Source of the DNA: Streptomyces sp. NBC_01235
GTDB lineage: Bacteria; Actinomycetota; Actinomycetes; Streptomycetales; Streptomycetaceae
Assembly (NCBI RefSeq): GCF_035989285.1
Contig: NZ_CP108513.1
Location: forward strand, 1 to 64,000
Direction of reading: 5' to 3'
Length of the DNA stretch: 64,000 nucleotides
Shown piece by piece: positions 6,130 through 23,405 of the stretch. Under the pieces are notes generated by a model. That model was not told the DNA's origin. It worked only from the letters and a program-made list of their open reading frames with translations, and made no database searches. Every line of letters begins with the position of its first letter. Within the stretch, counting starts at the first letter, position 1. Position numbers and translations under genes: made by a program.

Positions 6130-6167
6130 AGGAGATGTGTCCCGACCCTGGGCGATGAATTCCCGTC

Positions 6168-6389: not shown

Positions 6390-6390
6390 G

Positions 6391-7646: not shown

Positions 7647-7725
7647 GACGTGGGCATCTCGTGCATGAGCATCCGATCCCCTGCCGTGGATACGCCTGCG
7701 AGTCCGGACCCGATCGGCCCTGTGA

Positions 7726-7787: not shown

Positions 7788-7845
7788 AAGCCGACCAGTC
7801 CCCGGACTATGGTGCCTCTTCGTTGAACGAACGAAGGGAGATGCT

Positions 7846-9048
7846 GTGGACTCCGAGCAGTCGGGTCGACGGGCGAACTTCACGGATAAGACCAAGGGCA
7901 CACTGGCGCTGAGGGCAGCTTACCGGTGCTCCAACCCAGGCTGTGGAGTGCTAACCATTGGCCCAGGATCGGGCAGCGCGGACTTTGAGCTCACAGGCAC
8001 GGCCGCCCATATCTATGCTGCAGCGCCCAACGGCCCCCGGGGCACCGGCGGCCTGACCGACACCCAACGCAGCGCTCCTCCCAACGGAATCTGGCTATGT
8101 GCCCGTTGCGCGCGTCTTGTCGATACCAACGCTGGCGGGGCCTATCCTGCGTCACTACTACGAGGGTGGAAAGACCTCCATGAGACACGAATCCGCATGG
8201 AGCACGGCGGCATATCCCGCCCTTTCGGATGGATCCACTCCATCGACATTCTCAAGGATATCTGGCTAGCGGAGCCGACGACCGTACGGTTCTCGCGATG
8301 CAATCTTTTCCTCGGCGGAACGGGTATCGGCAAGACTCACTTCATTTCACTCCTGTCCGGTTTGTCCTCACCTTCAATTATCATGGATCGCCGGGACCGA
8401 TCGGATTCGACAGTGCACGCGGCGATCAACTGGTACGACCCCCAACCACGCCGAGCCGAGTTCAGAGCCGAAGGCGAGCAACTGCTCTTCTCGGCTGACG
8501 GAACCGCTGTGCCGTTTCTCTCCCAGCCGTATCGAATAGTCACTCTCCCGTCGGTTTGGGCATATGCGCCTCGAGATGTGCGCGAGCTAGGAAGGCTGCT
8601 CGGGCTGGATCATTGGGCCGTTCGAAATCTGATCACGGAGTTGCCAGAGATCGTTCGCGGAGCAGTCAAGCAGATACGGATTGTGGAAGATCAGATTCAG
8701 GCCGAGTACACCCTGGGTGACAAGGTCATTTCAGATCGAGGTCACGATAGATCGCTGGATAGGAGCGTGGTACTTGAGGTCCTCGTAGCCCTCGCGGAGA
8801 CCTATGCTCGTACACAGCCAACACTCCTGCTGGTCGATGAGCTCTACGGCGGCGGCAATGCCGATTTCGAACAAAACGTTACGGAGCTTCTCAGCTCGTC
8901 AATCCGAGGGTTTCAGACCGTAGCCACTTCTGTATTCTCACCGCTCGTCGCCCCAGAATGGACGGTGACTCGCTTTGTATACGCATCAGATGAGGCCCGC
9001 GGCCGTAAGCATTGGGCACGGCTGGTCCAAGACGATGTTGAGGGGTAA
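7846..9048 (+). CDS. HNH-like zinc domain fused to an SMC/RecF-type ATPase
   Basis: A 400-residue protein; the GTG start follows AAGGGAG. Residues ~25-115 form an HNH-type module: a CSNPGCG knuckle, an AHI histidine, the PPNGIWLC core and a second CxxC. The usual histidine after the last CxxC is alanine here (CARCARLVD). Residues ~150-395 form a P-loop ATPase with Walker A (GGTGIGKT, ~163-170) and Walker B (TLLLVDEL, ~325-332), arranged as in RecF/OLD/PtuA-like ATPases. HNH plus ATPase is the architecture of defence nucleases such as Septu, where the two parts are usually separate proteins. GC content is visibly lower than in its neighbours, which suggests horizontal gain. A defence role is inferred; cleavage activity is doubtful given the missing His. 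Confidence 0.78.
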   Translation: MDSEQSGRRANFTDKTKGTLALRAAYRCSNPGCGVLTIGPGSGSADFELTGTAAHIYAAAPNGPRGTGGLTDTQRSAPPNGIWLCARCARLVDTNAGGAYPASLLRGWKDLHETRIRMEHGGISRPFGWIHSIDILKDIWLAEPTTVRFSRCNLFLGGTGIGKTHFISLLSGLSSPSIIMDRRDRSDSTVHAAINWYDPQPRRAEFRAEGEQLLFSADGTAVPFLSQPYRIVTLPSVWAYAPRDVRELGRLLGLDHWAVRNLITELPEIVRGAVKQIRIVEDQIQAEYTLGDKVISDRGHDRSLDRSVVLEVLVALAETYARTQPTLLLVDELYGGGNADFEQNVTELLSSSIRGFQTVATSVFSPLVAPEWTVTRFVYASDEARGRKHWARLVQDDVEG

Positions 9049-9116
9049 GGCAGCCGGACCACGCTGGCCACTTGAGCATGGTGGGGCACAGGACCGATCA
9101 TGCCTCCGCACGCAAA

Positions 9117-9161
9117 CTGAGCGCTGTAGTTGGCCCGACCCGCCAAGTACGACGCTCATTC
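9117..9161. repeat. Inverted pair of the ~19-bp motif
   Basis: CTGAGCGCTGTAGTTGGCC (9117-9135) faces a copy beginning CGCCAAGTACGACGCTCAT (9141-9159), with a five-base spacer, forming a large dyad. It lies just downstream of the HNH-ATPase gene and about 100 bases before the next gene. The opposed arrangement differs from the tandem arrays at 7726 and 12965. Confidence 0.65.
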
Positions 9162-9243
9162 CCTCGGGCGTGGCTGCTGGGCGACGTAGTAGCACCCCTA
9201 CCGTGTTCCCACCGAGCGTCGTGTCGGCTGGCTGCCGATTCGA

Positions 9244-9249
9244 TACGTT
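9244..9249 (+). promoter_or_regulatory. Candidate -10 box for a leaderless transcript
   Basis: TACGTT matches the TAnnnT -10 consensus of the principal Streptomyces sigma factor and ends six bases before the ATG at 9256. No Shine-Dalgarno sequence is present, so transcription would start at or next to the start codon. Confidence 0.4.
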
Positions 9250-9255
9250 GCCGAG

Positions 9256-12200
9256 ATGGACGAACGCTCTGACCACTGCCTCCGTTTGAGCAAGGCGCCC
9301 GAGCTGGCTGACGGGTCCCCCCTCTCTGTCGCGTTGACCGACCTGGGCGAACCAGGAGTTCGTGCCTTGGGTCTGTTGCGGTCGGCAGACCGGCTGCTGA
9401 CAGAGGAGCAGGAGTGGGAGCGGCGGAGTGAGATCGTGATCTCCTGCTGTCGCGGCGCGGTGGAGGGTCTGCTGAAGCTCGCCGGCAAGGAGTCAGAGTT
9501 CATCGGCACAGGGAGTACGGGGCGGGAGCTCTCCGCCAGGCTCAAGGTGCTGCTGAACGCCCGGAGATCCTCCGGGGCGCTGGAGAAACTGGAGGCCGAG
9601 CTCGACGCGCTCGGCAGTCTCCCGGCCGAACTCACTTCGAAGGACGCCCTGTTCACCAAGCTGAAGGCTGTGGTGGCGGCGCGGGGCCAGCACAAGGCCC
9701 CGGTAGCGAACCCGTCAGCCGTGTTCGAAGCGCGGGCTGCTCTGGCGGCTGAGGTCGATGCCTTGGATGCCCTTCCGGACCGGTTGTCCGAAGGCGACGC
9801 GGTCTTCGTCAGACTCCGTGAACTGTTCGAAGCCCGCAAGGCCCATGAGGCCTTCCTGCGGGACGCTCTGGCCGCCGAGTTCGAGGCGGTCGAAGAAGCA
9901 TTCGCCGCGTTCACGTACGAGCAGGCCAACGGCTGGGAGTTCCGGGCGCGGAAGGTCAGCAAGCTGGTCCATCAGCAGACTCGCCGGGAACCGGGCGCTG
10001 TCGAACTCCAGGCCATCAAGGCATGGTCGGACTTCTACCAGGACGCCAACGTGACGGTGCATGGCGAATCCGCCGACACCGAGCTTGCCGCCTCGACTTT
10101 GCACAAGATCATCGCCGCCGTCGAGCAACTGTTCGTAGACCTTCCAGCCCGGGCGCCGCGGCTACGCGAACTCGTCAACCTCTCCCAGCCCACTCAGGAA
10201 GAGGCCGACGAAGTCTCAAGGATCACCGACCCCAGAGCCAACAGCTACTTCTTCGAGAAGGCCACCAGCTCGGCATGGCTCGACCTGCTCCCGGAGAACA
10301 GGCTGTTGCCGGAGAGCGACAGGTGGACCGCTGCCTCGTATTTCGAACGCCTCGCGGCTAAGGATCCCGAACGCGTGCTGGCATGGCTCGATGCCAGACT
10401 CAACGCGATCACGAAGCTGGGGCCTGCCGCTACAGCGCAGACAGTGCGCCTGGCCCGAGTGCTCGGCGCCGCCGCGAGCGCGTTCGTCCTGCGGCTCGTG
10501 AAGACCAGCGAGACCGATGGCTTGCTGCTCGACATCCACTACTGGGCTGTTGACGTTCCTGCGCGGGAGCGGAACGGACAGTGGGTCAGCGTGGTGACCC
10601 GCGTGCTGAAGAGCGCCGCAGCCACCAGCTGGCTGGATCCCTGGGAGGCGCAGCAAGCACTGGAGCATCTCAAGGCGGCCGGGGCCCGGCCTGAGGACGG
10701 CGGGCCAGAGATCTCGGTGGCGAATCTGGTGCGACAGGGCCTGGCGGAGGTGATGGCGGCTGGCTTGAATTCTCCCGACGGTGTCGGCGAGTTCGAGGTT
10801 GAGAACGACCTGCGGTCGGTTGGCGCCACGCATCCGGGCGACTCGCTGGTGCGGTTGATCGCGCGGGCGTGCTTGGACTTCGCACGGTACGAGGCGGGAT
10901 ACGGACTCGCTCTCGGTGTCCGTACAAGGCAGTGGTCCAGTGGGCTTCCCGCAGGACCGGTGCTCGACCGGCTGGTCGCGGTGCACCTCTTGGAGGTCCC
11001 ACCGGGGAACGAGTCGGACGTCTGGTGGGAGGCGGCGCTCGGAGTCATCTCACGGATTGGAGCCATGCGGAGGACGACGGCGGACCTCGCGGACTTCCTG
11101 CGCGCCGTGAACAGCGCCTGCTCCGAGGCGCGATCGCCTCAAATGGAGGCCGCGCTGGCGAATGGTCTTGGCGCCCCGCCGGACGCGGCCGGTCTCGAAG
11201 CCGGCCTCCAGGCACTCAAAGATCGCAAGCCGCTGCCCACGGTCCGGACCTGGTTCATGGTGTGGTCGCTCTCGCCCATCCTGCCAGCGTCCGTCCTCGC
11301 TCTCTGGCAGCCCGTCCTCGATCTCTTCGCCGAGCGGTTCGGCACTCCGCCGGAGCGGCCCGCACCACGATGGGAAGTCGTCTCGGTGGAGCGGGTACCC
11401 GAGGACGGATTCGCCGAGCTGTCCGCCGCGGCTGGCTCCGACGGAGCCGTCGCCGCCGCCCGCATGCTCGCTGCGGCGGCAGAGCCGGGCGACACCAGTC
11501 GTGAGCGGGACGATGAGGAAGTCCTGCTGTCCACCCTGGTCAGCGAGGCACCTGAGACCTGGATGGCCGACCCGGAACAGGTGTCGGCCGAGCTTGTGGA
11601 CCTCCACCTGCAGGCCGCCTACTTCGCCGCCCTGGAGAACCAGATCACCGCCGGCCGGACGTCCGCCGACGCTGAGACCATCCGCCGCATGGTTCTCGCT
11701 ATGTGGGACCTCATCCCTGTCGCGGATTCCCCTGCAGGGGACGCCGAAGCGGCCCAACGCCTTGAGCGCAGCTTCTGCCGTCTTCTCCATACCGCTTGGT
11801 CCCGCGACGTCGATCTCGGCGAGACCGCGGCCGAGGTCGCCGTCTGGCTCGACGGTATCGTCGCGGCATGGACCGCTCCCACTCAATCGACGGCAGACCC
11901 TGCCGACGTGATGTCGAACTCGGTCGGGGGCCTCGCGCTACTTGCCCTGATCCGTTGGGGTAGCCATCGTTCCCGTGTTGAAGGCGCGCCCCCCGTGGAG
12001 ATGACCGCACGCCTCGACGCCATCCTCGACGCCGCCCCAGACGACCGAGCGCTGGCCGCTATCGGGTGGGCCCTCACACCGCTTCACCGACATGCCCGCC
12101 GTTGGTTCGCCGACCATCGCGCCGAGCTTCTCAGCCTCGACGATACGTGGCGGCCCGCTCGCACCTGGCTCAAGCACCTGCCGGTCAACGTGGATGTGTT

Positions 12201-12843
12201 CGGCCAGATCGACCCGGACCGGCTGCAAGCTCTCCTGTGCTCCCCCGACATCGACCAGGAAGCATTTCGGTGCGCGCACGCCTTCCTCATCGCCCCGGAC
12301 GTCCTCGGACCGATCGAAGGCTTCGTATCGGCCTTGGCTCAGCGAGCCGCCGGCCCAGCTGCGGTTTCGCGCCTACTCTCTCGGACAGCGAGGATTTTAC
12401 CCAAGGACGGTAGCGGGGAAGACCTGAACGACAACGCCTTCCGCTTCTGGCGGGCCGTGCTCGCCCTGGAAGTACCGGAGGGCCACGCTCACCTGCACGG
12501 TGCAGGCGCCTTCTCCTTCGCCGTGGGCCTGGACGACCAAACATGGCTGGACCTGACCCGGCGCACGGTGGAACAGACTCCACTCGTGGAAGCGCCGGAC
12601 CACGTAGCCCGGCGGGCCGCCCGGCATCCACAGTCGACGGACGCGCGGGCCATCCTGACAGGCCTCCTCCCGCTTTACGACGGCGCTGCGCCCTCAGACC
12701 TTGCCCCGTATCGCGGAGGCGAGATCGTAAGGAACGCGTTCTCCGCGTGGCAGGCCAGTGCTCCTGGCAGCGAGGGACGGAAGGCACTGGGCGAGGCTCT
12801 CGCCCGCCATGGCGGCATCGTCGACGCCGCCATCGACGAGTAG
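9256..12843 (+). CDS. Giant alpha-helical protein of unknown function (1195 residues)
   Basis: An uninterrupted 1195-residue protein with strong codon bias; I do not recognise its family. It appears almost wholly alpha-helical, with Ala-, Leu- and Glu-rich repeats through residues ~50-250 and a HEAT/TPR-like succession of short helices from ~330 to the end. There is no P-loop, no membrane segment and no signal peptide. A block around residues 255-285 (FYQDANVTVHGES) resembles helical HEPN-type segments, but the match is weak. Size, isolation and position in a presumed defence island, bracketed by the 19-bp motifs, suggest a scaffold or sensor. The function is unknown. Confidence 0.8.
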   Translation: MDERSDHCLRLSKAPELADGSPLSVALTDLGEPGVRALGLLRSADRLLTEEQEWERRSEIVISCCRGAVEGLLKLAGKESEFIGTGSTGRELSARLKVLLNARRSSGALEKLEAELDALGSLPAELTSKDALFTKLKAVVAARGQHKAPVANPSAVFEARAALAAEVDALDALPDRLSEGDAVFVRLRELFEARKAHEAFLRDALAAEFEAVEEAFAAFTYEQANGWEFRARKVSKLVHQQTRREPGAVELQAIKAWSDFYQDANVTVHGESADTELAASTLHKIIAAVEQLFVDLPARAPRLRELVNLSQPTQEEADEVSRITDPRANSYFFEKATSSAWLDLLPENRLLPESDRWTAASYFERLAAKDPERVLAWLDARLNAITKLGPAATAQTVRLARVLGAAASAFVLRLVKTSETDGLLLDIHYWAVDVPARERNGQWVSVVTRVLKSAAATSWLDPWEAQQALEHLKAAGARPEDGGPEISVANLVRQGLAEVMAAGLNSPDGVGEFEVENDLRSVGATHPGDSLVRLIARACLDFARYEAGYGLALGVRTRQWSSGLPAGPVLDRLVAVHLLEVPPGNESDVWWEAALGVISRIGAMRRTTADLADFLRAVNSACSEARSPQMEAALANGLGAPPDAAGLEAGLQALKDRKPLPTVRTWFMVWSLSPILPASVLALWQPVLDLFAERFGTPPERPAPRWEVVSVERVPEDGFAELSAAAGSDGAVAAARMLAAAAEPGDTSRERDDEEVLLSTLVSEAPETWMADPEQVSAELVDLHLQAAYFAALENQITAGRTSADAETIRRMVLAMWDLIPVADSPAGDAEAAQRLERSFCRLLHTAWSRDVDLGETAAEVAVWLDGIVAAWTAPTQSTADPADVMSNSVGGLALLALIRWGSHRSRVEGAPPVEMTARLDAILDAAPDDRALAAIGWALTPLHRHARRWFADHRAELLSLDDTWRPARTWLKHLPVNVDVFGQIDPDRLQALLCSPDIDQEAFRCAHAFLIAPDVLGPIEGFVSALAQRAAGPAAVSRLLSRTARILPKDGSGEDLNDNAFRFWRAVLALEVPEGHAHLHGAGAFSFAVGLDDQTWLDLTRRTVEQTPLVEAPDHVARRAARHPQSTDARAILTGLLPLYDGAAPSDLAPYRGGEIVRNAFSAWQASAPGSEGRKALGEALARHGGIVDAAIDE

Positions 12844-12964
12844 ACCGACGATGGATCAACTGCCCCGAACGGTTGGACGTTGTCGTGCACCTTGATCCCG
12901 AAAGGAGTTACCCAACGCCTACACCGACCGGCTCGCTACCTCCCTCGATCACCAGCGCTCAACT

Positions 12965-13006
12965 CCGCCAAGTACAACACTCACTCGCCAAGTAAAGCGC
13001 TCAGTC
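12965..13006. repeat. Two tandem copies of the ~19-bp motif
   Basis: Units begin at 12965 (CCGCCAAGTACAACACTCAC) and 12986 (CGCCAAGTAAAGCGCTCAG), 20-21 bp apart, in the orientation of the copy at 9141. They lie between two convergent genes (the 1195-residue gene and tpg), where a promoter operator is not expected. This favours a boundary or recombination role over simple transcriptional control. Confidence 0.65.
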
Positions 13007-13042
13007 ACAGGTCCGGGCTCGCAGGCTGTTCGGGCGCGGTTG

Positions 13043-13600
13043 CTACAGGTCGAACTCGAGGTGCTCGATGTCCGTGAAGCGGACCTCCTCCAGCTGGCCG
13101 GCGCGGCGGCCGTTGTCCTGGAAGTACATCTCCTTGAGTGCTTCGGCGGCGATCCGCTGGAGCTGCCGGTCGGTGGCGCCGGCCTCCTGGGCGTCGAAGA
13201 GGCGGGCGGCGTAGCGGGGCGGCAGCGCGACGGTCAGGTGTCGAAGGCGGTCCTCGTCCGTCGTGCCGATTGGTGCGGTGTAGCCGATGCGGGCGCGGGT
13301 GTCAATGACGATGCCGCCGGTGGTCGCCGCCTTTTGCCGCGCCTGGGCGCGGATCTGCGGCTGCCACCGCTTCTTCACCTCCCGCTCCAGGCGGGCTGCG
13401 AGGTCCGGGCGGGGCTTCTTGATCTGGTTCTTCACGTACCGCTCGACCGTGCGCTGCGAGATCCGCAGCATCTGGGCGACCGCCTTGGTGCTCTTGAGCT
13501 GCTTGACCAGGTACCGCATCTGCGCGGGCGCGCTCTTGGGCGCTGGGCGGGTGAACGCCTTGTGCACTGCGGCGTCCAGGCCGTTGCCGAACAGGCTCAT
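13043..13600 (-). CDS. tpg: Telomere terminal protein Tpg
   Basis: A 185-residue protein with the start (MSLFGNGLDAAV), the central helix-turn-helix (AQMLRISQRTVERYVK, ~38-53) and the C-terminal block ending IEHLEFDL that are highly conserved in Streptomyces Tpg. Tpg is covalently attached to the 5' ends of linear replicons and primes fill-in of the telomeric 3' overhang. Length equals the usual 184-185 residues. It lies 10 bases downstream of tap in the same direction, the normal tap-tpg operon. A GGAGTAGG-type ribosome-binding site lies within the tap-tpg junction. Confidence 0.97.
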   Translation of the reverse strand: MSLFGNGLDAAVHKAFTRPAPKSAPAQMRYLVKQLKSTKAVAQMLRISQRTVERYVKNQIKKPRPDLAARLEREVKKRWQPQIRAQARQKAATTGGIVIDTRARIGYTAPIGTTDEDRLRHLTVALPPRYAARLFDAQEAGATDRQLQRIAAEALKEMYFQDNGRRAGQLEEVRFTDIEHLEFDL

Positions 13601-13610
13601 CGCGCTCTAC

Positions 13611-15830
13611 CTACTCCCCGGTGTCCTGGTCGGTGACGGTGCCGTCCTTGATGTACCGCGCGAGGTTGAGGTCCGGGGCGTCGAACCGCTCGCGAACGCC
13701 CTCGCCCCACAGCACGCTCTGCGTGCCCTCCCACTTGACGAGGCCGGGGTTCACGCCGAGCTTGAAGCCGCCGGGCAGGGGCTTGCCGTCCCGGTAGGGC
13801 AGGAAGTCCAGCGGCGACGGCCCGTCGGAGGCGTAGACGGCGCAGTCCGAGAGGACCGCGACCGGGTACTGCCCGGTGAACGCCGCGTGCTTGACGATCT
13901 TGCGGTGCATGTTGATCCGCGTGCGGGAGATGACGGCGGCGCGGATGTCCGGACGCCACGTCGGCCGGGCAAGGGCCCGCCACGGCTGCCCGGGCTTCCA
14001 ACCCTCCCCGCGCGGACGCTCACGCAGCTTGCCGATGCCCCCCTTCACCGTCGCCTTGACCGCGGACACCACGATCGCCAGTTGGGGGTCACGCTGCCGG
14101 TAGCCGTCCATCGCCGCGAGGAAGTCGGCCGGCGACAGGCCCGCGTGCACGCCGAGGTCGGCCATCGTGGCGAGGTACGCGTCGCGCAGCCGGTTGTACC
14201 AGCCGTCCAGGTAACGCCCGTTGTCGTAGCGCACCCACGCCTCGACCGGGCGCACCTCGTAGCCCAGTTCGACCGCGTACGCGACGGTGGGCGTGGCGTA
14301 CCAGGCCGGCCCTTCCGGGCGCTCGCCCTTCGGCGTGAACGGACTGGGCAGCAGCCCGGCGTCCAGCTGCGCCCATTTGTCCTTGGCCACCTTCACGCGG
14401 GACAGGTCGACGTGGCTCAGGTCGACCAGCCAGGAACCGGGCAGTTTCGGATCGAAGACGGGGTTCTTGACGTGCGTCGGCGCCCCAAGGCCGACCGTGA
14501 GGCCGTTCGCGCCAGCGGCGAAGGCCATGTTCACGTCGATGCCCACCAGGTGAGGGCGAAGGCATTCGGCGTCGGTGAGCGGGCGCGCCCAGTCGTACGC
14601 CTCCTCCACCAAGACTTCAGCCGGGGTGCGGTGGTGGAAGCGCGGCAGGTCTGCGACCAGCGGGTGCCCGTCGGGGGCCTCGCACGGTGCGCAGTCCACC
14701 GGATCCTTGCCCAGAGAGCCGGGGTTGTGCTCGGAGTGCCGCTTGCCCGTTGCGTCCGGTTCGGAGGCACGGGTCGGCGGGTGCAGGGCAGTCATCAGCT
14801 CCAGGCCGGTCACGGCGGTCGATCCGCGCGGCGTCATCACGCGGGCCGCATACGTGCCCAGCAGCCGGGCCAGGTCCGCCGGCGGCAACTGCCCTGTGTC
14901 GGCCCAGTGCCGGGTGTCGAGCGCGTCCCACGACGGGATGCACAACTGCACGCAGGAGCGTTCCGAGCCCTGCGCGGGGCGGTAGATCCTCGCCCACGGC
15001 CCAAACCCGCGCTTGGTCAGCTGCCAGTCGGCGCGCGTCAGCTGCTTGATGACCTTGTGGCCCTCCGGGATCCGGCCGGCCAGGCGCTCCTCCTTGGTGA
15101 GCGTGACGGGCAGGCCGTAGCGCTCCAGCGCGGCGTCGGTCAGCACGAGCAGCGGGTCGGCGTCCTTGCCTGGCCCGGACAGCTTCGGCTGACCGAGCCG
15201 CCCCTCGCTCAGCATCCACTCCACCAGGGCCGCAATCGACTTCGCCGGTACGTCAAGTACCAGGCCGCCGACGCAGTACGCCAGCACCTGACCGTCTTCG
15301 ACGTCGACGACCGCGAGCGGCCCGTTCTCGAACCGCGCATCGGCACCACCGGCTGGGGTGCCAGCCGGGGCGGCCTTCCGCGCGGGCGACCGACGCGACG
15401 TCAGCCTGGTCGTGGCCCCCGGATGCGGCACAGTGGCAGGGCGCAGCGCGGTGTTCTCAGAAGCTGGCTCCTGGATCGGTGCTGTGGGTTCGGTGCGGGC
15501 TTTGGCCGGTTCAGCTCCCGTTGGCGCAGGAGCGGCTGGGGGGGCAGGCGTCTCGGGGGCCGCCGTGTCCTCAGAGGGCACCGGGGCGTTGGCGGGGTAG
15601 AGCTGGGCGAGCTGCTTGAGCATGCGGGCATAGGCGTCGCGCTCCGGCGGCCGAGGCTCGGTCTTACCGGCCTCCCAGCCGCCGACCGTCGCGCGCCGCA
15701 CCTGTAGTGCGGCGGCCACCTCGTCCAGCGTCAGGCCGTGCGCCTGGCGCAGCCGCCTGCGCTCCGCCGGGGGCGGCAGCGGGGAACGGGACGCGATGAG
15801 CGCGTCGACCGCGTCGAACAGCTCGGACAT
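13611..15830 (-). CDS. tap: Telomere-associated protein Tap
   Basis: A 739-residue protein from the ATG at 15830, which has GGAGGTG seven bases upstream; the reading frame is open 90 bases further but without a site. Residues ~20-75 form a Cro/C1-type helix-turn-helix (LTLDEVAAALQVRRATVGGWE). A Pro/Ala-rich linker follows (~80-190), then a large C-terminal region with basic patches. Tap binds the folded telomeric overhang and recruits Tpg; the two are normally encoded together, as here. Length equals the classic chromosomal Tap. Its presence 14 kb from a telomere supports a self-sufficient replicon end. Confidence 0.95.
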   Translation of the reverse strand: MSELFDAVDALIASRSPLPPPAERRRLRQAHGLTLDEVAAALQVRRATVGGWEAGKTEPRPPERDAYARMLKQLAQLYPANAPVPSEDTAAPETPAPPAAPAPTGAEPAKARTEPTAPIQEPASENTALRPATVPHPGATTRLTSRRSPARKAAPAGTPAGGADARFENGPLAVVDVEDGQVLAYCVGGLVLDVPAKSIAALVEWMLSEGRLGQPKLSGPGKDADPLLVLTDAALERYGLPVTLTKEERLAGRIPEGHKVIKQLTRADWQLTKRGFGPWARIYRPAQGSERSCVQLCIPSWDALDTRHWADTGQLPPADLARLLGTYAARVMTPRGSTAVTGLELMTALHPPTRASEPDATGKRHSEHNPGSLGKDPVDCAPCEAPDGHPLVADLPRFHHRTPAEVLVEEAYDWARPLTDAECLRPHLVGIDVNMAFAAGANGLTVGLGAPTHVKNPVFDPKLPGSWLVDLSHVDLSRVKVAKDKWAQLDAGLLPSPFTPKGERPEGPAWYATPTVAYAVELGYEVRPVEAWVRYDNGRYLDGWYNRLRDAYLATMADLGVHAGLSPADFLAAMDGYRQRDPQLAIVVSAVKATVKGGIGKLRERPRGEGWKPGQPWRALARPTWRPDIRAAVISRTRINMHRKIVKHAAFTGQYPVAVLSDCAVYASDGPSPLDFLPYRDGKPLPGGFKLGVNPGLVKWEGTQSVLWGEGVRERFDAPDLNLARYIKDGTVTDQDTGE

Positions 15831-15850
15831 GCAGCACCTCCAGTCCCGCA

Positions 15851-15891
15851 ACTCTAGCGTGAAGCGTACGTTTCGCGTACCAAACACGTAC
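15851..15891 (-). promoter_or_regulatory. tap promoter with putative operator
   Basis: On the minus strand TAGAGT (15851-15856) is a good -10 box about 20 bases upstream of the tap start. Immediately upstream is a perfect dyad, GTACG at 15866-15870 and CGTAC at 15876-15880, with a third CGTAC at 15887. Repeats overlapping the -35 region suggest repression, possibly by the helix-turn-helix of Tap itself; that is inference. Confidence 0.45.
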
Positions 15892-16101
15892 GGATGGCGT
15901 AAATGGCGGTGGGGGTTCACGGTTGCTTCGGGAAGGGTGTTCTCGGGCTTGGGTTACTGCTGGCTCTCTAGCCGAGGGCCTGCGGTGGTGTCTTGGCTAT
16001 GCCTGAACTGACCGGGGAGAGCGGCTTGGTGTGAGAGATCTGGGAGAGCAGACCGCCGCCGTGCACCAGCCATCGCGGTGGCAGAACGCTCGGGGGCGGG
16101 C

Positions 16102-16656
16102 ATGGGTGAGATCGTCAAAGGGCTCGAGCGGGCGTTGCTGACCCGTCCCGTGCCTACGCGGGATGCCGCTGTGCGTTTCCTGCTCAGGGCGGAGAAGGGC
16201 TCCACGATGAACGTGGCTGTCCTCCTGGGGATCTCCCAGCGCACGGTCCAGAGGTGGGTCACCACCCGGCCGGGAATGCGCCGCCGTCCCAGTGCCGTGC
16301 ATGCGGGGTTGATCGATGAGGCTGTCAGAGCACGGTGGCAGCCCCTGGTGCGCGCCCGCCGGCGGGCCCGGGCCGAGGCCGACGGGTTCGTCTTCCACAC
16401 CAGGGCGCGGTTCGGATTCGCCGCTCCGGCAGGCTCGTCGGACGATCCACGAGTACGGCTGATCACCCAGTACTTATCAGGAGAAGTGGCCCGCGAGCTG
16501 TTCGCCGCCCGGGATGCCGGCGGGGGCGAGCAGCAGCAGCTGGTGATCCTCGCCCGGGCTTTGGGGCATGCCTATTTCCGGGACGGAGGCCGACGTGCTC
16601 ACGGTCTCGGGATCGCCTTCACCGACGTGGAGTTCGCCGATTTCTCCATCGACTGA
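16102..16656 (+). CDS. Second, divergent Tpg-family terminal protein
   Basis: A 184-residue protein collinear with Tpg over its whole length: N-terminal MGEIVKGLERALLTRP, a central helix-turn-helix (VAVLLGISQRTVQRWV, ~37-52), RWQPLVRAR, an FHTRARFGFAAP block matching the IDTRARIGYTAP block of Tpg, and a C-terminus ending FTDVEFADFSID. The ATG at 16102 is preferred over an upstream GTG at 16078 because it aligns with the Tpg start. Identity to the neighbouring Tpg is clearly partial, so this is an ancient paralogue rather than a recent duplicate. It is divergent from tap and convergent with the transposition module (20 bases between stops). Codon 125 is TTA (16474-16476), which in Streptomyces makes translation depend on the bldA tRNA. 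Confidence 0.88.
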   Translation: MGEIVKGLERALLTRPVPTRDAAVRFLLRAEKGSTMNVAVLLGISQRTVQRWVTTRPGMRRRPSAVHAGLIDEAVRARWQPLVRARRRARAEADGFVFHTRARFGFAAPAGSSDDPRVRLITQYLSGEVARELFAARDAGGGEQQQLVILARALGHAYFRDGGRRAHGLGIAFTDVEFADFSID

Positions 16657-16675
16657 CGTGCGCCTGGGGCCGGGT

Positions 16676-17779
16676 TCAGGACGAGGGCGGGATCTGGTGC
16701 CGCGTCAGCATCGCGTCATAGCACTGTGCTTCCTTGCGTTCGCGCCAATCCCACTGGATACCGCCGGTGCGCGGGCCGGCGGACGGCTGGGGCGGGCGGA
16801 GCCTGGCCGCCTCCGCTACGCGCAGCAGGTGGGCGCGGTCGTGAGGGCCGGCCAGCAGATGCTGGTCCTGGCCAGGAGCGAGCCGAGCGAAGCAGACGGC
16901 GGCCTTCAGGAAGACGCGCGCCCACGACGGCACACCGTAGGTAGCGCAGCCGTCGGTGTAGCGGGTGCGGTCGTGCAGGGCCAGGGTGGCTGCGGTGTCG
17001 TCGTAGTCGCCTGGGCGGGCGGTGGCGAGCTGTTGGAAGGAGGCGCCGGTGAAGAGCGCGGCGGCGAGGGCGGCGGCCAAGCGGGGGTGGGCGGTCACGG
17101 TGGCCAGGCGTCGGGCGATTTCCCGGGCTGTCTGCTCGGTGAACGGTGCGGGTGGCGGGCGGTGCCGGAAGGTGATCACTGGCGGCGTGCACGGGGCGGT
17201 ACATGGAGCGGGGCTGTCGTAGGAGACGAGGCGGTCCAGCACGGGCAGGGTGAGCCACCGGTCTGCCGGCCGGGCGGGTTCGTCAACAGGCTGGGGTACG
17301 GGTGCGGTCGTGCCGTAGTAGTGGCGGCGGGCGGCCTGGAAGTCGGTGGTGACGGCGTAGTCGGCCGTCTGCAGGGCCTGGTGCAGGGCGGCGGGCAGGT
17401 GGGGGCGGTGGCAGATCAAGGTCAGGTGGATGCCGGTGAGGGCGCGCAGTTGCAGGAGGCGCATTGTGCGGCGGGCGGTGAGGCGGTGGGTGCGCAGGAC
17501 GGTCAGCCGGGTGACGGGCAGGGCAGTGATCCAGGCGGTGGCGGCTTCCCAGGCGGGCTGACGGCCGGCGGGGAAACGCCCCGGGAGCAGGGGCGGTTTG
17601 CCTAGGGCGGCGAGAAGGTCGTGGGCGAGGCCGGTCTCGCTGGTGGTGCCCGGGCCGGGGTGCAGGGTGATCCGCCCGGAGGGCGGATGGTGGGCGGCCA
17701 GGGCAGTGTGCGTGTGGACCGCGTCGTCGCCTGGGTCGATGACCACGGCTACGGGCGGCGGGGGCACGGCGGGCGGCAT
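16676..17779 (-). CDS. Last gene of the transposition module: degenerate ATPase-like half plus unknown C-terminal half
   Basis: About 367 residues from the ATG at 17779, 14 bases after the TniB-like stop; the frame is open to 17839. I do not recognise the family. Residues ~30-140 line up by eye with the core of the neighbouring ATPases: a DLLAALGKPP helix matches their ALxLPxR region, and RLTVLRTHRLTARRTMRLL occupies the place of VLVVDEAQRLPVPCLEYLQ. The Walker A loop and the Asp-Glu pair are gone. The C-terminal half (~210-330) vaguely recalls a tyrosine recombinase body (LFTGASFQQLATARPGDYD) but lacks the catalytic R-H-R-Y set. Its place after tniA-tniB is where Tn5053-type elements encode TniQ, yet no TniQ zinc fingers are visible. 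It may be an adaptor for target choice. Confidence 0.65.
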   Translation of the reverse strand: MPPAVPPPPVAVVIDPGDDAVHTHTALAAHHPPSGRITLHPGPGTTSETGLAHDLLAALGKPPLLPGRFPAGRQPAWEAATAWITALPVTRLTVLRTHRLTARRTMRLLQLRALTGIHLTLICHRPHLPAALHQALQTADYAVTTDFQAARRHYYGTTAPVPQPVDEPARPADRWLTLPVLDRLVSYDSPAPCTAPCTPPVITFRHRPPPAPFTEQTAREIARRLATVTAHPRLAAALAAALFTGASFQQLATARPGDYDDTAATLALHDRTRYTDGCATYGVPSWARVFLKAAVCFARLAPGQDQHLLAGPHDRAHLLRVAEAARLRPPQPSAGPRTGGIQWDWRERKEAQCYDAMLTRHQIPPSS

Positions 17780-17792
17780 GGCGACGTGGTGG

Positions 17793-18536
17793 TCAGGCGA
17801 GGCGGCTGAAGGCCCAGCGCAGCAGCTCCTGATCCACACGGGAGCGGCCGGTGCGGGCCAGGGCGGTGCGGGTGTGGGCGGTCAGCTGGGCCCAGGCGCG
17901 GAAGTTGCCGTGTGCGGCGTGCTGGTCGGCGAAGGCTATGTCGTCGGGATCGGCGTCGGCCCACACCGGGTGGAACAGGGGAATGGCCTCCAGGACCTCG
18001 CCGGGGGTGAGGCGGGTGAAGTGCTGCCAGATGAAGATGCGGGAGGACAGCATCGGTTCGCGGCGCAGCACGGTGTGGCAGCCCTCCCCGCCGACGAAGA
18101 TGATCGCGAGCTGGGTGGCAGGTTCGTCCCACAGGTAGCGGAAATATTCGAACGCCTCCCCGTTGAGCCACTGCGCCTCATCGACCAGGAAGGTACGGGG
18201 GCGTTCGGCCAGGGCCATCTTTAGCAGACGGTCGAATTCACTGGGGTGGCGCGGTGGTTCACCGGCCAGGTCGAGCGCGGTGAACAGTTCGTAGCGCACC
18301 GCGCGGGCGGTGGGCCGGGCCCGGAAGGTGATCTTGCGGACGTCCTCGCCGGGTTCGAGTTCGCGCAAGCAGGTGTTGACGGCAAGGGTCTTGCCGAAGC
18401 CGGCGCCGCCGTGGATGCACATCATGGCGCGGGCGGCGACGGTGTCGGTGATGTTCTCCCGGGCAGTGAGCAGGGCGCGGGTTGTGACCACGGAGGCGTC
18501 GGGCAGGTCGACGTACTGGTAGGTGGCCGCGGTCAC
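17793..18536 (-). CDS. TniB/MuB/TnsC-like AAA+ transposition ATPase
   Basis: A 247-residue AAA+ protein; the GTG start overlaps the transposase stop (GTGA). Walker A is GGAGFGKT (~43-50) and Walker B is TFLVDEAQ (~118-125), followed by a sensor-like segment IIFVGGEG (~150) and an arginine-rich C-terminal lid. Such ATPases form filaments on target DNA and deliver the DDE transposase (MuB for Mu, TniB for Tn5053, TnsC for Tn7). It is the only plain ATPase of the three in this operon and the likeliest direct partner of the transposase. Confidence 0.85.
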   Translation of the reverse strand: MTAATYQYVDLPDASVVTTRALLTARENITDTVAARAMMCIHGGAGFGKTLAVNTCLRELEPGEDVRKITFRARPTARAVRYELFTALDLAGEPPRHPSEFDRLLKMALAERPRTFLVDEAQWLNGEAFEYFRYLWDEPATQLAIIFVGGEGCHTVLRREPMLSSRIFIWQHFTRLTPGEVLEAIPLFHPVWADADPDDIAFADQHAAHGNFRAWAQLTAHTRTALARTGRSRVDQELLRWAFSRLA

Positions 18537-20314
18537 GAGGCGTCTCCGTCTTTGTCGGTGGTGGGACGTGCGGCCCGCCCATCGGGGCCGTCCGGAGCGG
18601 GAACGGAATCACGGCCGGACGGGAGCGGGGTGGGCCGGTCTGGCGTGGTCAGCGCGGCCAGGGAAGCAGGGGTACGCCACCCGGTCGGCGGCGCGGCGGG
18701 CGGGATGAGGTCCGGCAGCGACAGCTGCGACAGGTCGGTGTCAGCGGCCTGGGCGAGTTCGGCCTCGGCCTGCGCGGTGGTCAACGCACCGAGCCGCTGA
18801 GGGGCCTCGGGCTGGTTCACGGCGGCGTAGCGCTCGCGCTGGGAAACCTCCAGGTCCTTCTTGAGGCGGCGGGTGCGGGCGGCCCGTGCTCGCCGTACGG
18901 CGCTGACCTGTTCCTCGGTGGCCCGGTCGGCCAGATCTGCGGGACCGAGGTAGCGGCCGGTGACCGCGTGGTAGACCTCGATCCGGTGGTCGTGGTGGGG
19001 CATGTAGCGGACCCTGACCTGGATACCGGCCTGACCGGTCATCCACGGGCCCACATAGTCGCGTCTCCTGAAGCGGATGCCGCGGGTGGTCAGCGTGCGA
19101 GTGCCGGCGTCCTCCAGGGTGAACGTCCACAGATCCGTCGCCGGCACGTCCCTCAGCGGGGTCGGATCCTCCTGCCACGCCTCAAGCGGCGTCTTGCCCC
19201 GCAAGGGCGCGGGGCGATGCTCGGTGTTCCACCAGAGCGTCCAATCCAGCAGCCTGGCGGTGAAGTCCTCGAAACCGAGCAGCACTTCGTCCTTCGGGCG
19301 GGAAGCCCGCTTGCCGGGACGCGGCTGGCGGGCGTAGCCGGGCAGCGCGGCCAGGAACATGCTCTCCACCGCCCGGTTGAGACCCTCCACGGTGCCCTTG
19401 AGGTGGGGGGTGTAGGCGGGCAGGTCCTCCACCGTCACGTCCAGGAGATCGAACGCGGCGGTCACCGTCCTGGACAGGAAGTCCTTGCCGCGGTCCACCC
19501 GTACTTTCTCCGGCAGGCCGCCGAACGGGCCGTAGGGATCCTCACGCAGGACCGCGGAGCGCAGCGCGGAAAGCACCGACTCCCGCGACGGATCCCCCGG
19601 CGTGACCGCGACACCCGTGATCGCGTTCGTCGCGCAGTCGGTGAACCACGTGATCCACGGCCTGCGGGCGGTGCCGTCGACGTCGACCAGCACCGCCGCT
19701 TGGACGTGGTCGGTCTCCCACACCTGGTTGCGCCAGCCCCGCGGCCGGGCCAGGAACACATCATGCTTGCGCGCCGCCCGCTCCCCTCCCGCGAGCCCGG
19801 CCCGCTCCCCCGGCGTCAGATCACGGCGGATCGCGCGATGCAGCGTCGTCAGCGACGGTGCGTCTGCAGGCGGAGACTTCCGAGCGGCACGGAGGACCAG
19901 TTCGCGATGGACGGCCCGCACGTTCCCCTTCCACAGTGCCAACAGCCCACGGACTTCAGGCGTGATCGTGAACGTCGCACCGGCCCGGGGCGGGGCACCA
20001 GGGCTGGCGGCCGCGGCCTCATCACCCTCAGCCGCGGCCAGCCACCGCCACACCGTGCGCTCCGCCACCCCCAACGCGTCTGCAGCCACCCGCACATGAC
20101 CCGCTGTCAGCTTCTTCCCCGCCCGCAGAGCGAGCAGCCGCCGTACCGCCGGACCGCGCAGTGCCCTCCTCGATGCCGCGGGCAGCCCGCCGCCTGCACG
20201 GACGGCGTCACCGTCCTCCATGTCAGCTCCCCTCCCGCGGTGGGACATCGTGTGCGTGCCGGGTGCCGAGCGCCTGCAATCGCCCTCCCGCCTCTTGCAC
20301 AGCGCTTGGTTCAT
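18533..20314 (-). CDS. Mu/TniA-type DDE transposase
   Basis: A 593-residue retroviral-integrase-superfamily transposase. The start at 20314 is set by an ATGA overlap with the upstream stop. Residues ~55-155 contain two DNA-binding parts: a helix-turn-helix (ADALGVAERTVWRWLAAAE) and a second helical unit ending LTTLHRAIRRDLTPGE. The DDE core spans ~205-400: first Asp in WETDHVQ, second in VRVDRGKDF, Glu in KGTVEGLNR. A Mu-type beta-barrel (~430-490, ending YHAVTGRYLGP) and a basic helix (RAARTRRLKKDLE) follow, then a Pro-rich tail. Length and order match TniA/TnsB/MuA proteins, which cut and join element ends. All catalytic residues are present, so it could be active. Confidence 0.92.
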   Translation of the reverse strand: MNQALCKRREGDCRRSAPGTHTMSHRGRGADMEDGDAVRAGGGLPAASRRALRGPAVRRLLALRAGKKLTAGHVRVAADALGVAERTVWRWLAAAEGDEAAAASPGAPPRAGATFTITPEVRGLLALWKGNVRAVHRELVLRAARKSPPADAPSLTTLHRAIRRDLTPGERAGLAGGERAARKHDVFLARPRGWRNQVWETDHVQAAVLVDVDGTARRPWITWFTDCATNAITGVAVTPGDPSRESVLSALRSAVLREDPYGPFGGLPEKVRVDRGKDFLSRTVTAAFDLLDVTVEDLPAYTPHLKGTVEGLNRAVESMFLAALPGYARQPRPGKRASRPKDEVLLGFEDFTARLLDWTLWWNTEHRPAPLRGKTPLEAWQEDPTPLRDVPATDLWTFTLEDAGTRTLTTRGIRFRRRDYVGPWMTGQAGIQVRVRYMPHHDHRIEVYHAVTGRYLGPADLADRATEEQVSAVRRARAARTRRLKKDLEVSQRERYAAVNQPEAPQRLGALTTAQAEAELAQAADTDLSQLSLPDLIPPAAPPTGWRTPASLAALTTPDRPTPLPSGRDSVPAPDGPDGRAARPTTDKDGDAS

Positions 20315-21597
20315 AGCGGCGGCGCGACCCTCCTGAACAGCCGCCTCAGCAAAGCCCGGTCGACGGCCGCGTCAGCGGTGGTCAGCAGCGCGTTCTGCAG
20401 GTGGGCAGTCAGAGCGGCCCACATGCGGAACGCGCCGTGGGCGCACGACTGGTCGATCCACGTCAGATCCGGGGCCGCGACGGTGCGCCACAGCGGATGG
20501 AAGCCGGTCACCACGGCCGCCACTTCCGCTGCAGCCAGGCGCGGAACCTCCTGCCACCCGCCGATCCGCGATGCCAGCTGCGGCAGCCGGGCCAGCGCCC
20601 GCTCGCTGCCCGACCCGCACAGCACCAGCGTGATCCGCGTGCCGGGGTCGTCCCACAGGCTCTGCAGGTACTCCAGGCACGGCACAGGCAGGCGCTGCGC
20701 CTCATCGACCACCAGCACCCGCGCCTCACCCAAAGCCCCCACGACCGCGGCGTCGGCCAGCGCCGACGTGTGCGGGAAACGGCCCGGCAGCGCCAAAGCA
20801 TCGAACACCGCCCGCCTCATGCCAGACACCGACGGGCGCACCGGCACCGGCACCCACGTCACCTTCCAGCCCGGCGGGACCTCGTGGAGCGCCATCCGCA
20901 CGGCCGCGGTCTTGCCCCGGCCCGGGTCACCGAACACACACACCGCGCCCTCCGCCGCCATCGCCTGCCCGACCGCCTCGGCCACCGCCCGCACCGACGA
21001 CGTCCGCACCAGCTGTGCTCCCGCCGGCAACGCCACACCCGCCATCGCACCGCTCTCCCCCGACGGCAGGACCGCGGACGCCGCCGCCGGCGCGGGGTGC
21101 GGCGGCCGGCGCGCCACCCCCTTCGCCGCGCCGCCCTCACGCATCCCGGCCAGCGCAAGGTCAACCAGCGCCTGCCGTGTCCGCTGCTCCTCCCGCTCCC
21201 GCCGCACCACCACACGATCCGGCAAGACCCTGCCGGCCTCCAGGTCCCGCCGCACCACCCGGTACAGCGACGCCAGCGACGGCACTTCTCCCCCGGCATC
21301 CTTCAAATGCCGGTGCAGCACCGACACGTTCCCGCCCGCCTGTGCCAGCACCTCCCACACCTGGTCGGACAACTCCAGCCGGGCCCGCGGCCTGCGCTCC
21401 ACACGGCCCTCCGTCCGCGCCGCATCCAGCCAGCGCCACACCGTGCGCACATTCACCCCACCGACCTGCGCGCCCGCACGCACGTGCGCCGTGGTCAACG
21501 CCCCCGCCGCCTCGAGCTCCAGCAGCCGCGCAACCAGCACCGGCCTGGACACCCTCAACCCCGCCGCGACCTCACCCCACACGCCCGGCTCCCCCAC
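20311..21597 (-). CDS. AAA+ ATPase with transposase-like N-terminal DNA-binding region (copy 1)
   Basis: A 428-residue protein; the GTG start at 21597 follows GGGAGGG by six bases. Residues ~20-130 repeat the layout of the transposase N-terminus: TTAHVRAGAQVGGVNVRTVWRWLD, then SLASLYRVVRRDLEAGR matching SLTTLHRAIRRDLTPGE in the transposase. A Pro/Ala linker (~155-195) leads to an AAA+ domain with Walker A GDPGRGKT (~231) and Walker B VLVVDEAQRL (~292-301). A TnsC/MuB-like ATPase able to bind element ends itself is unusual, although MuB has its own small helix-turn-helix. It is the first gene of the transposase operon and is coupled to it by ATGA. Roles as a second target-delivery ATPase or a regulator competing for end sites are both possible. 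Confidence 0.82.
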   Translation of the reverse strand: MGEPGVWGEVAAGLRVSRPVLVARLLELEAAGALTTAHVRAGAQVGGVNVRTVWRWLDAARTEGRVERRPRARLELSDQVWEVLAQAGGNVSVLHRHLKDAGGEVPSLASLYRVVRRDLEAGRVLPDRVVVRREREEQRTRQALVDLALAGMREGGAAKGVARRPPHPAPAAASAVLPSGESGAMAGVALPAGAQLVRTSSVRAVAEAVGQAMAAEGAVCVFGDPGRGKTAAVRMALHEVPPGWKVTWVPVPVRPSVSGMRRAVFDALALPGRFPHTSALADAAVVGALGEARVLVVDEAQRLPVPCLEYLQSLWDDPGTRITLVLCGSGSERALARLPQLASRIGGWQEVPRLAAAEVAAVVTGFHPLWRTVAAPDLTWIDQSCAHGAFRMWAALTAHLQNALLTTADAAVDRALLRRLFRRVAPPL

Positions 21598-21675
21598 CCC
21601 ACACCCTCCCGACGCCCAAACCCGACGCCGACCACCGTGCCGCCGACCGGCCCTCGAAGGATCAGAAGTGCCGTT

Positions 21676-21750
21676 CCCATGACAGCGGAACAGGGAAGGG
21701 TGTAGCGCCCCATGACAGCCACGACGGCACCAGACACCGCCCCATGTCAG
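21676..21750. repeat. Phased CCCATGACAGC repeats upstream of ATPase copy 1
   Basis: CCCATGACAGC occurs at 21676-21686 and 21709-21719, and CCCATGTCAG at 21741-21750; the starts are 33 and 32 bp apart. The same word recurs upstream of ATPase copy 2. TGACA/TGTCA is also the terminal word of Tn5053/Tn7-class elements, so these may be transposase-type binding sites, serving either as internal element ends or as operators. Confidence 0.7.
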
Positions 21751-21763
21751 TGACTCCCCACGC

Positions 21764-23167
21764 TCAACACCCCACCAACAGCGAAAACACCCTGACCTGA
21801 CATGCCGTCACTGACACCACCCACTGACACCACACCGGCACATCGCAGCCAAGACGCGCGCAGGCCTGCTCGATCAGCTCCCCATCCACCCGCCGTACGG
21901 GATCGCGCTCACGGGCCGCGTAGACATGCGACGTGATCTTCGCCCAGGTGCGGAAATTGCCGTGCGCCATCTGCTCGTCCACCCGCGCCAGGTCGTCCGG
22001 GTCCGCCTGCGCCCACACCGGATGGAACAGGCCCAGCGTCTGCTGCAGTTGAGACGGCTCAAGCCGGCCGACCTGGTGCCAGGTCAGCACCCGCGAGCGC
22101 AGCGCCGACGCCCGCGCCACAGCGCGTTCGCTTCCCGCCCCGCACAGCACCAGCGCCGCCGCGCAGCCCGGCGCGTCCCACAACTGCCGCAGATAGTCCA
22201 GCAAGGGCGGCGTCAGCCGCTGGGCGTCATCGACGACCAGCACACCCGGCTCGGCCAGAGTCCGCTCGAGAGCCTGACCGGCCGGCCCGGCCCGGTGCGT
22301 CAGCGCCCCCGACGGCAGCCCGAGCGCCTCACACAGGCAGGCCCGCAACTGCGGCAGACCGGGCGCGACCCCGGCCACCGCCCGCCACACCGGCACCCGG
22401 CCCGGCAAAAGACGCAACGCCTGCTCAACAGCGACCGTCTTGCCCAGCCCCGGATCCCCGTACACACAGCACATCCCGCGCGCCGCGACCGTATGACCCA
22501 CCGCCTCCACCACCCCGGCCACCTGCCGCGTCGACACCAGCCGCGCCCCCGGCACGTACAACCGCACCCCACCGGCCCGCACCCCCGCATCCGCGGCGTC
22601 CTCCGGCACCGGCACGTCGGCGGGCGGCCCGTCGACAACAGCCGGTCCGTCCGCCCCGTCCGCGAACCCCAAGTCCGCCAGCGCCCGGTCATACGGACTC
22701 GGCTCCACCCCGGCGCGGGCCCCTGCCGGACGGGCCACCTCAAGCACCCGGCCCGCCCCCAGATCCCGCTTGATCACCCGGTGCAACGTCGGCAGCGACG
22801 GCACACACTGCGCACCCCATTCCTCCAACGCCCCCTCTTCCTGCGCCCGGAGCATCCTGCGCCGCAACTCCGCAACATTCCCGCCCGCCTGAGCCAGGAC
22901 CTCCCACAAGGGATCACTCAGCGAAAACCCGTCCTGCCGCGGCCTCGCCTCGACATGGCCCCGGCGCCCATCGGCCAGCCACCGCCACACCGTCCGCTCC
23001 GACACCCCCGCCAGCTCCGCCGCGATCCGCACATGCAACCGCGACAGCGTCCCCTCCTCATCCACCGCAAGAAGCCGCCGCACCACCACACCCCGCGCCA
23101 ACGACACACCCACCGGCGGCACCACACCAGCCGACCCCGCCCCAGCCCCACCCGCCGAAACCGTCAC
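21764..23167 (-). CDS. AAA+ ATPase with transposase-like N-terminal DNA-binding region (copy 2)
   Basis: About 467 residues from the GTG at 23167; the frame stays open to a TTG at 23233, but that start would lie inside the repeat array. Residues ~30-150 repeat the transposase N-terminal layout (AAELAGVSERTVWRWLADGR; later SLPTLHRVIKRDLGAGR). After a variable linker comes an AAA+ domain with Walker A GDPGLGKT (~263) and a Walker B variant VLVVDDAQRL, in which the usual Asp-Glu is Asp-Asp; this could slow hydrolysis. It ends in a hydrophobic tail. It is a paralogue of the downstream ATPase, separated from it by 167 bases that hold the phased repeats, and is probably expressed from its own promoter in the region 23168-23290. 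Confidence 0.78.
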   Translation of the reverse strand: MTVSAGGAGAGSAGVVPPVGVSLARGVVVRRLLAVDEEGTLSRLHVRIAAELAGVSERTVWRWLADGRRGHVEARPRQDGFSLSDPLWEVLAQAGGNVAELRRRMLRAQEEGALEEWGAQCVPSLPTLHRVIKRDLGAGRVLEVARPAGARAGVEPSPYDRALADLGFADGADGPAVVDGPPADVPVPEDAADAGVRAGGVRLYVPGARLVSTRQVAGVVEAVGHTVAARGMCCVYGDPGLGKTVAVEQALRLLPGRVPVWRAVAGVAPGLPQLRACLCEALGLPSGALTHRAGPAGQALERTLAEPGVLVVDDAQRLTPPLLDYLRQLWDAPGCAAALVLCGAGSERAVARASALRSRVLTWHQVGRLEPSQLQQTLGLFHPVWAQADPDDLARVDEQMAHGNFRTWAKITSHVYAARERDPVRRVDGELIEQACARLGCDVPVWCQWVVSVTACQVRVFSLLVGC

Positions 23168-23217
23168 ACGGCCCAGCCCACCCGACCCCGCCAGCCCCTC
23201 ACACAGGAACAACGAAA

Positions 23218-23283
23218 CCCATGACAGCCACAACCCGAGCTGCTAACCGCCCCACAACAGCCGCTTGGTCACCCCATGACAGC
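23218..23283. repeat. CCCATGACAGC repeats upstream of ATPase copy 2
   Basis: Exact copies lie at 23218-23228 and 23273-23283, with a two-mismatch copy (CCCACAACAGCC) at 23251-23262, again 33 bp from the first. Both exact copies are followed by related CACAACCC words. They lie at the right margin of the module, where one end of a Tn7/Tn5053-like element would be expected. No matching inverted copy was found at the left margin. Confidence 0.65.
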
Positions 23284-23405
23284 GACCACAACCCGGTCCC
23301 AGAACCACTACCAGGACCTCCACACCGCGATTCCGCTGACGCCCACCCACTGCCGCCCCACCGCCCACTCACACCAGCCGCCGCCCCGTACACCAACAAG
23401 CCCCC

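Follow-up and report, generated by a model that had tools for sequence, protein, structure and literature searches.

The transposons Tn5053 and Tn402 carry the genes TniA, TniB, TniQ and TniR. Linear bacterial genomes, among them those of Streptomyces, reportedly carry telomeric transposons, described by Hsieh et al. in Science in 2025, which are said to have one specific transposon end and to use the telomere as their second boundary. In a passage of PMC12669027, which cites Hsieh et al. 2025, a variety of CRISPR-associated transposon (CAST) lacking TniQ-TnsD is placed with a class of telomeric transposons. Here, bases 1-64000 (the window) of the chromosome of Streptomyces sp. NBC_01235 (NZ_CP108513.1), a single contig of 11,090,044 bases, were analysed for a block of transposition genes near the replicon tip. 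From the inside towards the tip, the block encodes two ATPases fused to a transposase-type DNA-binding region (fused ATPase A and fused ATPase B), a TnsB-like transposase, a TniB-like ATPase and a fifth protein, orf5; beyond orf5 follow a second tpg-like, a tap-like and a tpg-like gene and then a near-tip helicase with helicase-associated domains. With a probability of roughly 60%, this block represents the stretch next to the right end in a Tn7-like telomeric transposon of B type that lies on the remains of an older A-type one, and its fused ATPase would serve the pairing of ends.

Shared tips, right ends and stacked elements

A terminal inverted repeat spans positions 21-23376 of the window at 99.996% identity, and the transposase and both fused ATPases recur as identical copies near the opposite chromosome end. 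The edge of the repeat at 23376 lies 3 bases past the terminus of the A-type right end (RE-A) at 23373, and the sequence beyond is unrelated. Comparable edges were found in other genomes: about 11.9 kb were common to four replicon ends in G067, with the edge 0-2 bases from the terminus, in G140 the large contig and a contig of 365 kb had 10.8 kb in common at their ends, with the edge within 2 bases of the terminus, and two contigs of Streptomyces sp. NBC_00154 were identical over 12,056 bases, from 1 base before the terminus to their ends. Three further genomes (G191, G302 and G223) were taken as a fresh check. In G191, about 13.98 kb were common to the ends of the large and the small contig, with the edge 0-5 bases from the terminus, and the two large-contig ends had a further 847 bases in common; the shared tips of G302 and G223 extended past the element. 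Altogether, the shared edge lay within 10 bases of the terminus in eight of 18 replicon sets, five of these sets being linear plasmids; the eight were G000, G067, G051, G140, G101, G191, NBC_00154 and the Streptomyces cynarae plasmid, in which the distance was 6 bases. Within one genome, several replicon ends had the segment from tip to right end in common but differed in its inner flank, and some replicons carried the element at one tip only. By these comparisons, the element appears to be bounded by a single, putatively transposase-recognised right end and by the replicon end, as a telomeric transposon is. This telomere-carrying, one-ended frame had been overlooked in a preliminary description of the block.

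The RE-A terminus reads 5'-TGTGAGTGGGCGG down from 23373 and carries two CTGTCATGGG repeats, and that of the B-type right end (RE-B) reads 5'-TGCGATGTGCCGG down from 21847, with six TGTCA/TGACA. A scan of named genomes yielded 179 relatives in Streptomyces, Kitasatospora, Streptacidiphilus and Embleya, from which 78 distinct loci were kept. Termini begin with 5'-TGTGA in the A type or 5'-TGCGAT in the B types (jointly 5'-TG[TC]GA) and are accompanied by TGTCA-type repeats; 31 right ends matching these patterns were found in the 78 loci plus the window, the latter contributing two, and the flanks differed in all 30 for which flank sequence was available. The terminus sits 233-290 bases before the fused N-domain match, so placed that the right end directly precedes the fused ATPase gene, followed tipwards by the transposase, TniB, orf5 and, in many loci, tap/tpg. 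The expectation that the block would have defined ends in other genomes thus held for the right end, with its varied flanks, but one end only was found. Within the window, at least five TGTCA per 250 bases occurred at one place only, and genome-wide the exact RE-B terminus was present at both tips (here and in the mirror copy) and in one unrelated internal match; no left end with like repeats was detected in the window or with the RE-B terminus genome-wide, a search that a differing left end would escape. A locus that looked two-ended (L046, G083:C1 at about 41-50 kb) was discarded, its arms matching past the right end over 5.2 kb at 97%; it may be a palindrome of two A-type elements tail to tail, made either by fused ends or by an assembly fold-back. 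L156 and both tips of plasmid NZ_CP106794 (L178 and L179) have an identical hexamer, CCCAGC, immediately before the B terminus, which could be a carried-along flank or chance.

In the window, the B terminus abuts the codons for ...ACARLG of fused ATPase A, the native 3' end of which is lost, its frame leaving ...ACARLG for 27 other residues encoded by RE-B. As ...LGP followed by two residues forms the C-terminus in 38 of the 40 relatives listed (the sequences of P0020 and P0025 being incomplete there), a B element was apparently joined here to an A element, and the window is best read as a stack, with the right end and the fused gene left of the older one. The preliminary description had one element with three ATPases, including two fused ones; because RE-B interrupts the A-type fused gene, this reading was rejected. 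Elsewhere, elements have one fused ATPase together with TniB, and in no named locus with downstream sequence was fused A directly followed by fused B, except for short overlapping fragment matches (L107 and L164). The five genes had also been seen as one unit; their relatives do occur together, but fused ATPase A belongs to another, older element. The L109 element (Streptomyces sp. CG 926) has, downstream of its TniB, another, distant ATPase of the fused type (13994-15088).

Other loci are layered too, with pieces of orf5, tpg or transposase just inside the right end. Such remnants were found within 1 kb in 5/30 loci (window counted), at 1-2 kb in 2/29 and at 2-4 kb in 1/26, and in none at 4-6 kb (0/25), 6-8 kb (0/23) or 8-10 kb (0/1). 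This clustering would be expected if the fused ATPase, sitting on resident right ends, were a target selector drawing newcomers into or beside old elements, where only another telomere module is lost. Such a role is unlikely, as the landings lie inside older genes at no fixed distance from the older right end and the newcomer in the window is of the other type; moreover, survival alone predicts near-tip landings, because insertions further in would delete host genes. The opposite role, target immunity, would have the fused ATPase sense an existing right end and clear TniB from nearby DNA. Part of PMC11406308 states that a resident Tn7-like element inhibits further insertion in its vicinity, and a built-in end sensor could conceivably do this job in one protein; as the newcomer in the window landed about 1.5 kb from the older right end, though it is of the other type, immunity appears still less probable than target selection.

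The fused ATPases, orf5 and a putative role at the right end

The N-terminal region of the transposase resembles those of both large ATPases beyond chance, as the preliminary description had noticed. In BLASTP comparisons of seven segments, to which the E-values apply, identity to the transposase was 39% over 122 residues for fused ATPase A (E 2e-15) and 39% over 127 residues for fused ATPase B (E 3e-15), and the two ATPases shared 51% over 120 residues (E 3e-29) in this region. A whole-genome search with the transposase as query recovered both fused ATPases (E 3.6e-12 and 1.7e-10). The AAA+ assignments and the separate TniB-like ATPase were likewise confirmed: AAA_22 was present in all three ATPases, and the AAA+ halves of both fused proteins were 39% identical to the neighbouring TniB-like ATPase (E about 1e-50), with a weak match of PF05621 (TniB) to fused ATPase B (E 0.012) that falls under the cut-off of the profile. 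Against the PDB, the fused-ATPase profile matched only MuB (E 3.2e-8), and MuB and TnsC were nearest to the predicted ATPase folds. The predicted structure of fused ATPase B comprises a helical N-region (about 10-125) with two helix-turn-helix (HTH)-like units, a low-confidence linker (149-193) and an AAA+ domain (194-428). The model thus points to a TnsC/MuB-type AAA+ fold with Walker A and Walker B present, Walker B being DE in fused ATPase B and DD in fused ATPase A; the B-type members keep Walker A and DE, and the A-type members have DD. The open reading frame of fused ATPase A as listed starts with TTG at 23233, whereas relatives such as P0001 begin at about 23167, the start given earlier.

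The fifth protein had been called an orphan. By predicted fold, its residues 24-168 form a TnsC/MuB-like AAA+ domain, from which the Walker A lysine and the Walker B acids are absent; the C-terminal half is modelled at low confidence. Its profile found no match in the PDB. Assignment to TniB by sequence was discarded (profile comparison probability 3.2; AAA_22 in 1/40 members, E 0.048), and a recombinase-like C-terminus is no more than a weak hint, as the XerA match (Foldseek E 0.16) falls where confidence is mostly <64; among the 50 matches listed for the fold search of orf5 there was no recombinase.

The fused ATPases keep company with the transposase, also as previously proposed. From 82 fused C-domain matches, two lacked 700 bases of downstream sequence, and a transposase lay within 600 bases downstream in 73 of the remaining 80, leaving seven without. 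When N-domain types were compared in 71 pairs, from loci not fully independent of each other, L097 and L098 being from one genome, A went with A in 41 and B types with B in 30, and no pair was crossed; of two further pairs typed by the catalytic part of the transposase only, one was A with A and the other B2 with A (L107, an overlapping fragment). Pairwise distances were analysed in 37 distinct loci, all parts being intact in 41 of 119 sequences, of which four were duplicates. Distances of the fused N-region correlated with those of the transposase N-domain at r 0.86, the catalytic part at 0.59 and TniB at 0.22, and within 21 B loci at 0.95, 0.01 and -0.03, respectively. Thus, among B elements, the fused ATPase and the DNA-binding region of the transposase change together, whereas the catalytic part and TniB do not, which fits the prediction of a shared end specificity.

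In trees that kept one duplicate pair (L037 and L132) and the fused-type gene of L109 labelled TniB, the fused N-domains formed one clade with an ultrafast bootstrap (UFBoot) of 100, suggesting a single origin of the fusion. The ATPase halves, that mislabelled gene included, grouped next with the second tniB of two elements that carry a pair of tniB genes (UFBoot 97). These relatives, L065 and L066, have no fused gene. In an order-wide draw, fused-ATPase matches were found in 34 of 197 genomes at E 1e-40, some of them TniB only. Among plasmid records 97 were matched, the best place being <20 kb from the record end in 19 of the 25 listed, and phage records gave no match. Many distant transposase relatives were listed with one TGA inside; a split or recoded transposase was dismissed because, among the matches listed, several show single open frames through both domains, and the TGA is taken to be a natural stop.

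These data would be accommodated by the following mechanism. Transposition would join the right end to new DNA, which would gain a new telomere and lose what lay beyond; in the window, the B element would have attached at the final codons of A's fused ATPase gene, with A's right end and that gene staying as an inner layer. The HTH region of the fused ATPase would recognise the right-end repeats that the transposase binds, and its ATPase domain, of the TnsC/MuB type, would thereby be positioned at the right end, to which the protein is most likely held. There, TniB, the Walker-less orf5 and this domain would act jointly to bring the single right end together with a partner end and with target DNA.

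The fused ATPase might instead be mainly a repressor, binding the repeats that precede its gene in competition with the transposase and titrating TniB through its ATPase domain, so that transposition stays rare. It is the first gene after the repeats, its N-region is common to and co-varies with that of the transposase, and the A-type members have the Walker B DD. A repressor is a possible but doubtful alternative, given that Walker A and DE are kept in B-type members and that the AAA+ half tracks the transposase N-domain as closely (r 0.91) as the N-region does (0.86), which a pure competitor would not need.

Several results speak against a B-type telomeric transposon with an end-pairing fused ATPase. 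Of the eight replicon sets with matching edges, G051 and G101 are without a fused gene and their termini are not independently defined; in G101 the edge is 9 bases outward, and among the three pairs one has 2 kb more in common. In five of the 18 sets (G049, G129, G302, G223 and the NBC_00846 plasmid) the shared tips are longer, in two the end lies at another place or is unclear (G088, where it falls within the fused gene, and G117), and three, all plasmids, share no end. By eye, no 5-bp duplication was seen between left and right flanks, although a one-ended element need not have one. Longer tips would be explained by ordinary two-ended Tn7-like debris near the tips, shared through homologous recombination between arms, with nothing special about the right end, and arm exchange is known in Streptomyces according to a passage of PMC5869714. 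We consider this very improbable, as the junctions lie at the terminus with 30 different flanks, also between replicons of one genome, a second end was not found in the 64-kb window and the element may occupy one tip only. As regards the fused ATPase, the N-region profile had no significant match in the PDB, and fused ATPase A, with Asp replacing the Walker B Glu and a foreign tail, may be dead. Within 14 A loci, the fused N-region correlated with the transposase N-domain at r 0.72, the catalytic part at 0.81 and TniB at 0.39, so the pattern of the B loci is not seen there; and as the fused gene and the transposase N-domain are physical neighbours, linkage alone would produce the B-type co-variation, given a recombination breakpoint within the transposase gene. 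Finally, of 150 genus members, 48 have the transposase family (E 1e-20); 16 of these 48, and no other member, also have the fused ATPase (E 1e-55), so many elements do without it.

A rather doubtful extension of the end-pairing role is that, in the one-ended telomeric transposons of Streptomyces, the right end, the fused ATPase and the DNA-binding region of the transposase form an exchangeable specificity cassette with an end-tethered TnsC, marking right ends both as donor and as preferred landing place; replicon ends would then trade telomeres one right end at a time, and orf5, as a Walker-less TnsC paralogue, would stand in for TniQ.

Other features of the window

The coordinates of the features are collected in Table 1. 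The tip-side genes are presumably those called Tap, Tpg and TtrA. Genes of the tap/tpg/ttrA type sit at replicon ends, ttrA at most of them, as stated in part of PMC8743542.

Table 1. Features of the right-end-proximal block and of the adjoining tip (window positions).
Feature	Position	Strand	Basis
RE-A, right end of older A-type element	23220..23373	-	same terminus with varied flanks at other loci; inverted-repeat edge
Fused ATPase A: transposase-type HTH N-region and TnsC/MuB-like AAA+, foreign 27-residue tail	21764..23167	-	
RE-B, right end of B-type element	21598..21847	-	terminus and repeats
Fused ATPase B: HTH-like N-region, linker, AAA+	20311..21597	-	domain scan, BLASTP, predicted structure
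TnsB-like DDE transposase (HTH_23, rve, Mu-transpos_C)	18533..20314	-	domain scan, PDB profile match
TniB-like ATPase	17793..18536	-	
orf5, predicted Walker-less TnsC/MuB-like fold	16676..17839	-	predicted structure
Second tpg-like gene, divergent from orf5; position kept in many relatives	16078..16656	+	
tap-like gene, HTH domains; adjoins module in several relatives	13611..15920	-	
tpg-like gene	13043..13600	-	
Near-tip helicase with helicase-associated domains (ttrA-like)	1419..4943	+	
Proposed complete B-type telomeric element, tip to RE-B	1..21847	none	inference

Between the helicase and the tpg genes, an open frame of 1195 residues without a Pfam match (9256-12843) is possibly cargo, and directly inside RE-A (23276-24932) there are pieces of other transposase genes with DDE_3 and DDE_Tnp_1 matches. 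On the S. cynarae plasmid NZ_CP106794 (L178:10901-19974), a second helicase with helicase-associated domains lies inside the telomeric element; further in, TnsA-like, Mu-transposase-C, ATP-binding and TniQ genes are annotated, perhaps belonging to another, TnsA/TniQ-bearing telomeric element beneath. The tpg-like protein of the window gave a weak TnsD match (E 0.072). A genome-wide search with PF06527 (TniQ) found no match, but the control profile likewise matched nowhere.

Comparison with known systems

The transposase is nearest to TnsB, its best PDB match being that of 7svw (E 1.7e-13), which we take to be ShCAST. Together with ATPase folds nearest to MuB and TnsC, this gives the putative Tn7-like core, a TnsB-like DDE transposase and a TnsC-like AAA+ regulator. 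In contrast to Tn7 and CAST, the domain scan of the five proteins of the module detected no TnsA or TniQ domain, the TnsC-like ATPase carries a transposase-type HTH region and there is a further protein of predicted TnsC fold without Walker motifs. With Tn5053/Tn402 the locus shares a transposase and a TniB-like ATPase; it differs in that no TniQ was found among the five proteins and no resolvase among ten window proteins scanned, and in being terminal and, on present evidence, one-ended.

Mu (MuA/MuB) and IS21 (IstA/IstB) also combine a DDE transposase with an AAA+ helper, and we know of no helper ATPase whose extension derives from the transposase's own DNA-binding region. According to passages of PMC11208146, IstA resembles MuA and TnsB in domain organisation and has two DNA-binding domains of the HTH type, and the N-terminal extension of IstB differs from that in TnsC and in MuB. 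Part of PMC10293859 mentions, for some loci, an extra tnsC in an operon with tnsB. A fused ATPase with a Walker-less neighbour was not found in the literature searched, which did not include the text of Hsieh et al. 2025.

The shared tip-to-right-end segments and the junctions at the terminus fit the telomeric transposons reported by Hsieh et al. 2025. The host element thus belongs to a kind already published, the one-ended telomeric transposon, whereas a TnsC/MuB-like ATPase fused to a transposase-type DNA-binding region may be new. As the inverted-repeat edge coincides with a transposon end in several replicon sets, the element offers a handle on the trading of telomeres by linear bacterial chromosomes and, if the proposed role is true, a helper ATPase with the end-binding region of its transposase would link the recognition of ends with the choice of target in a way new to the Tn7/Mu superfamily.

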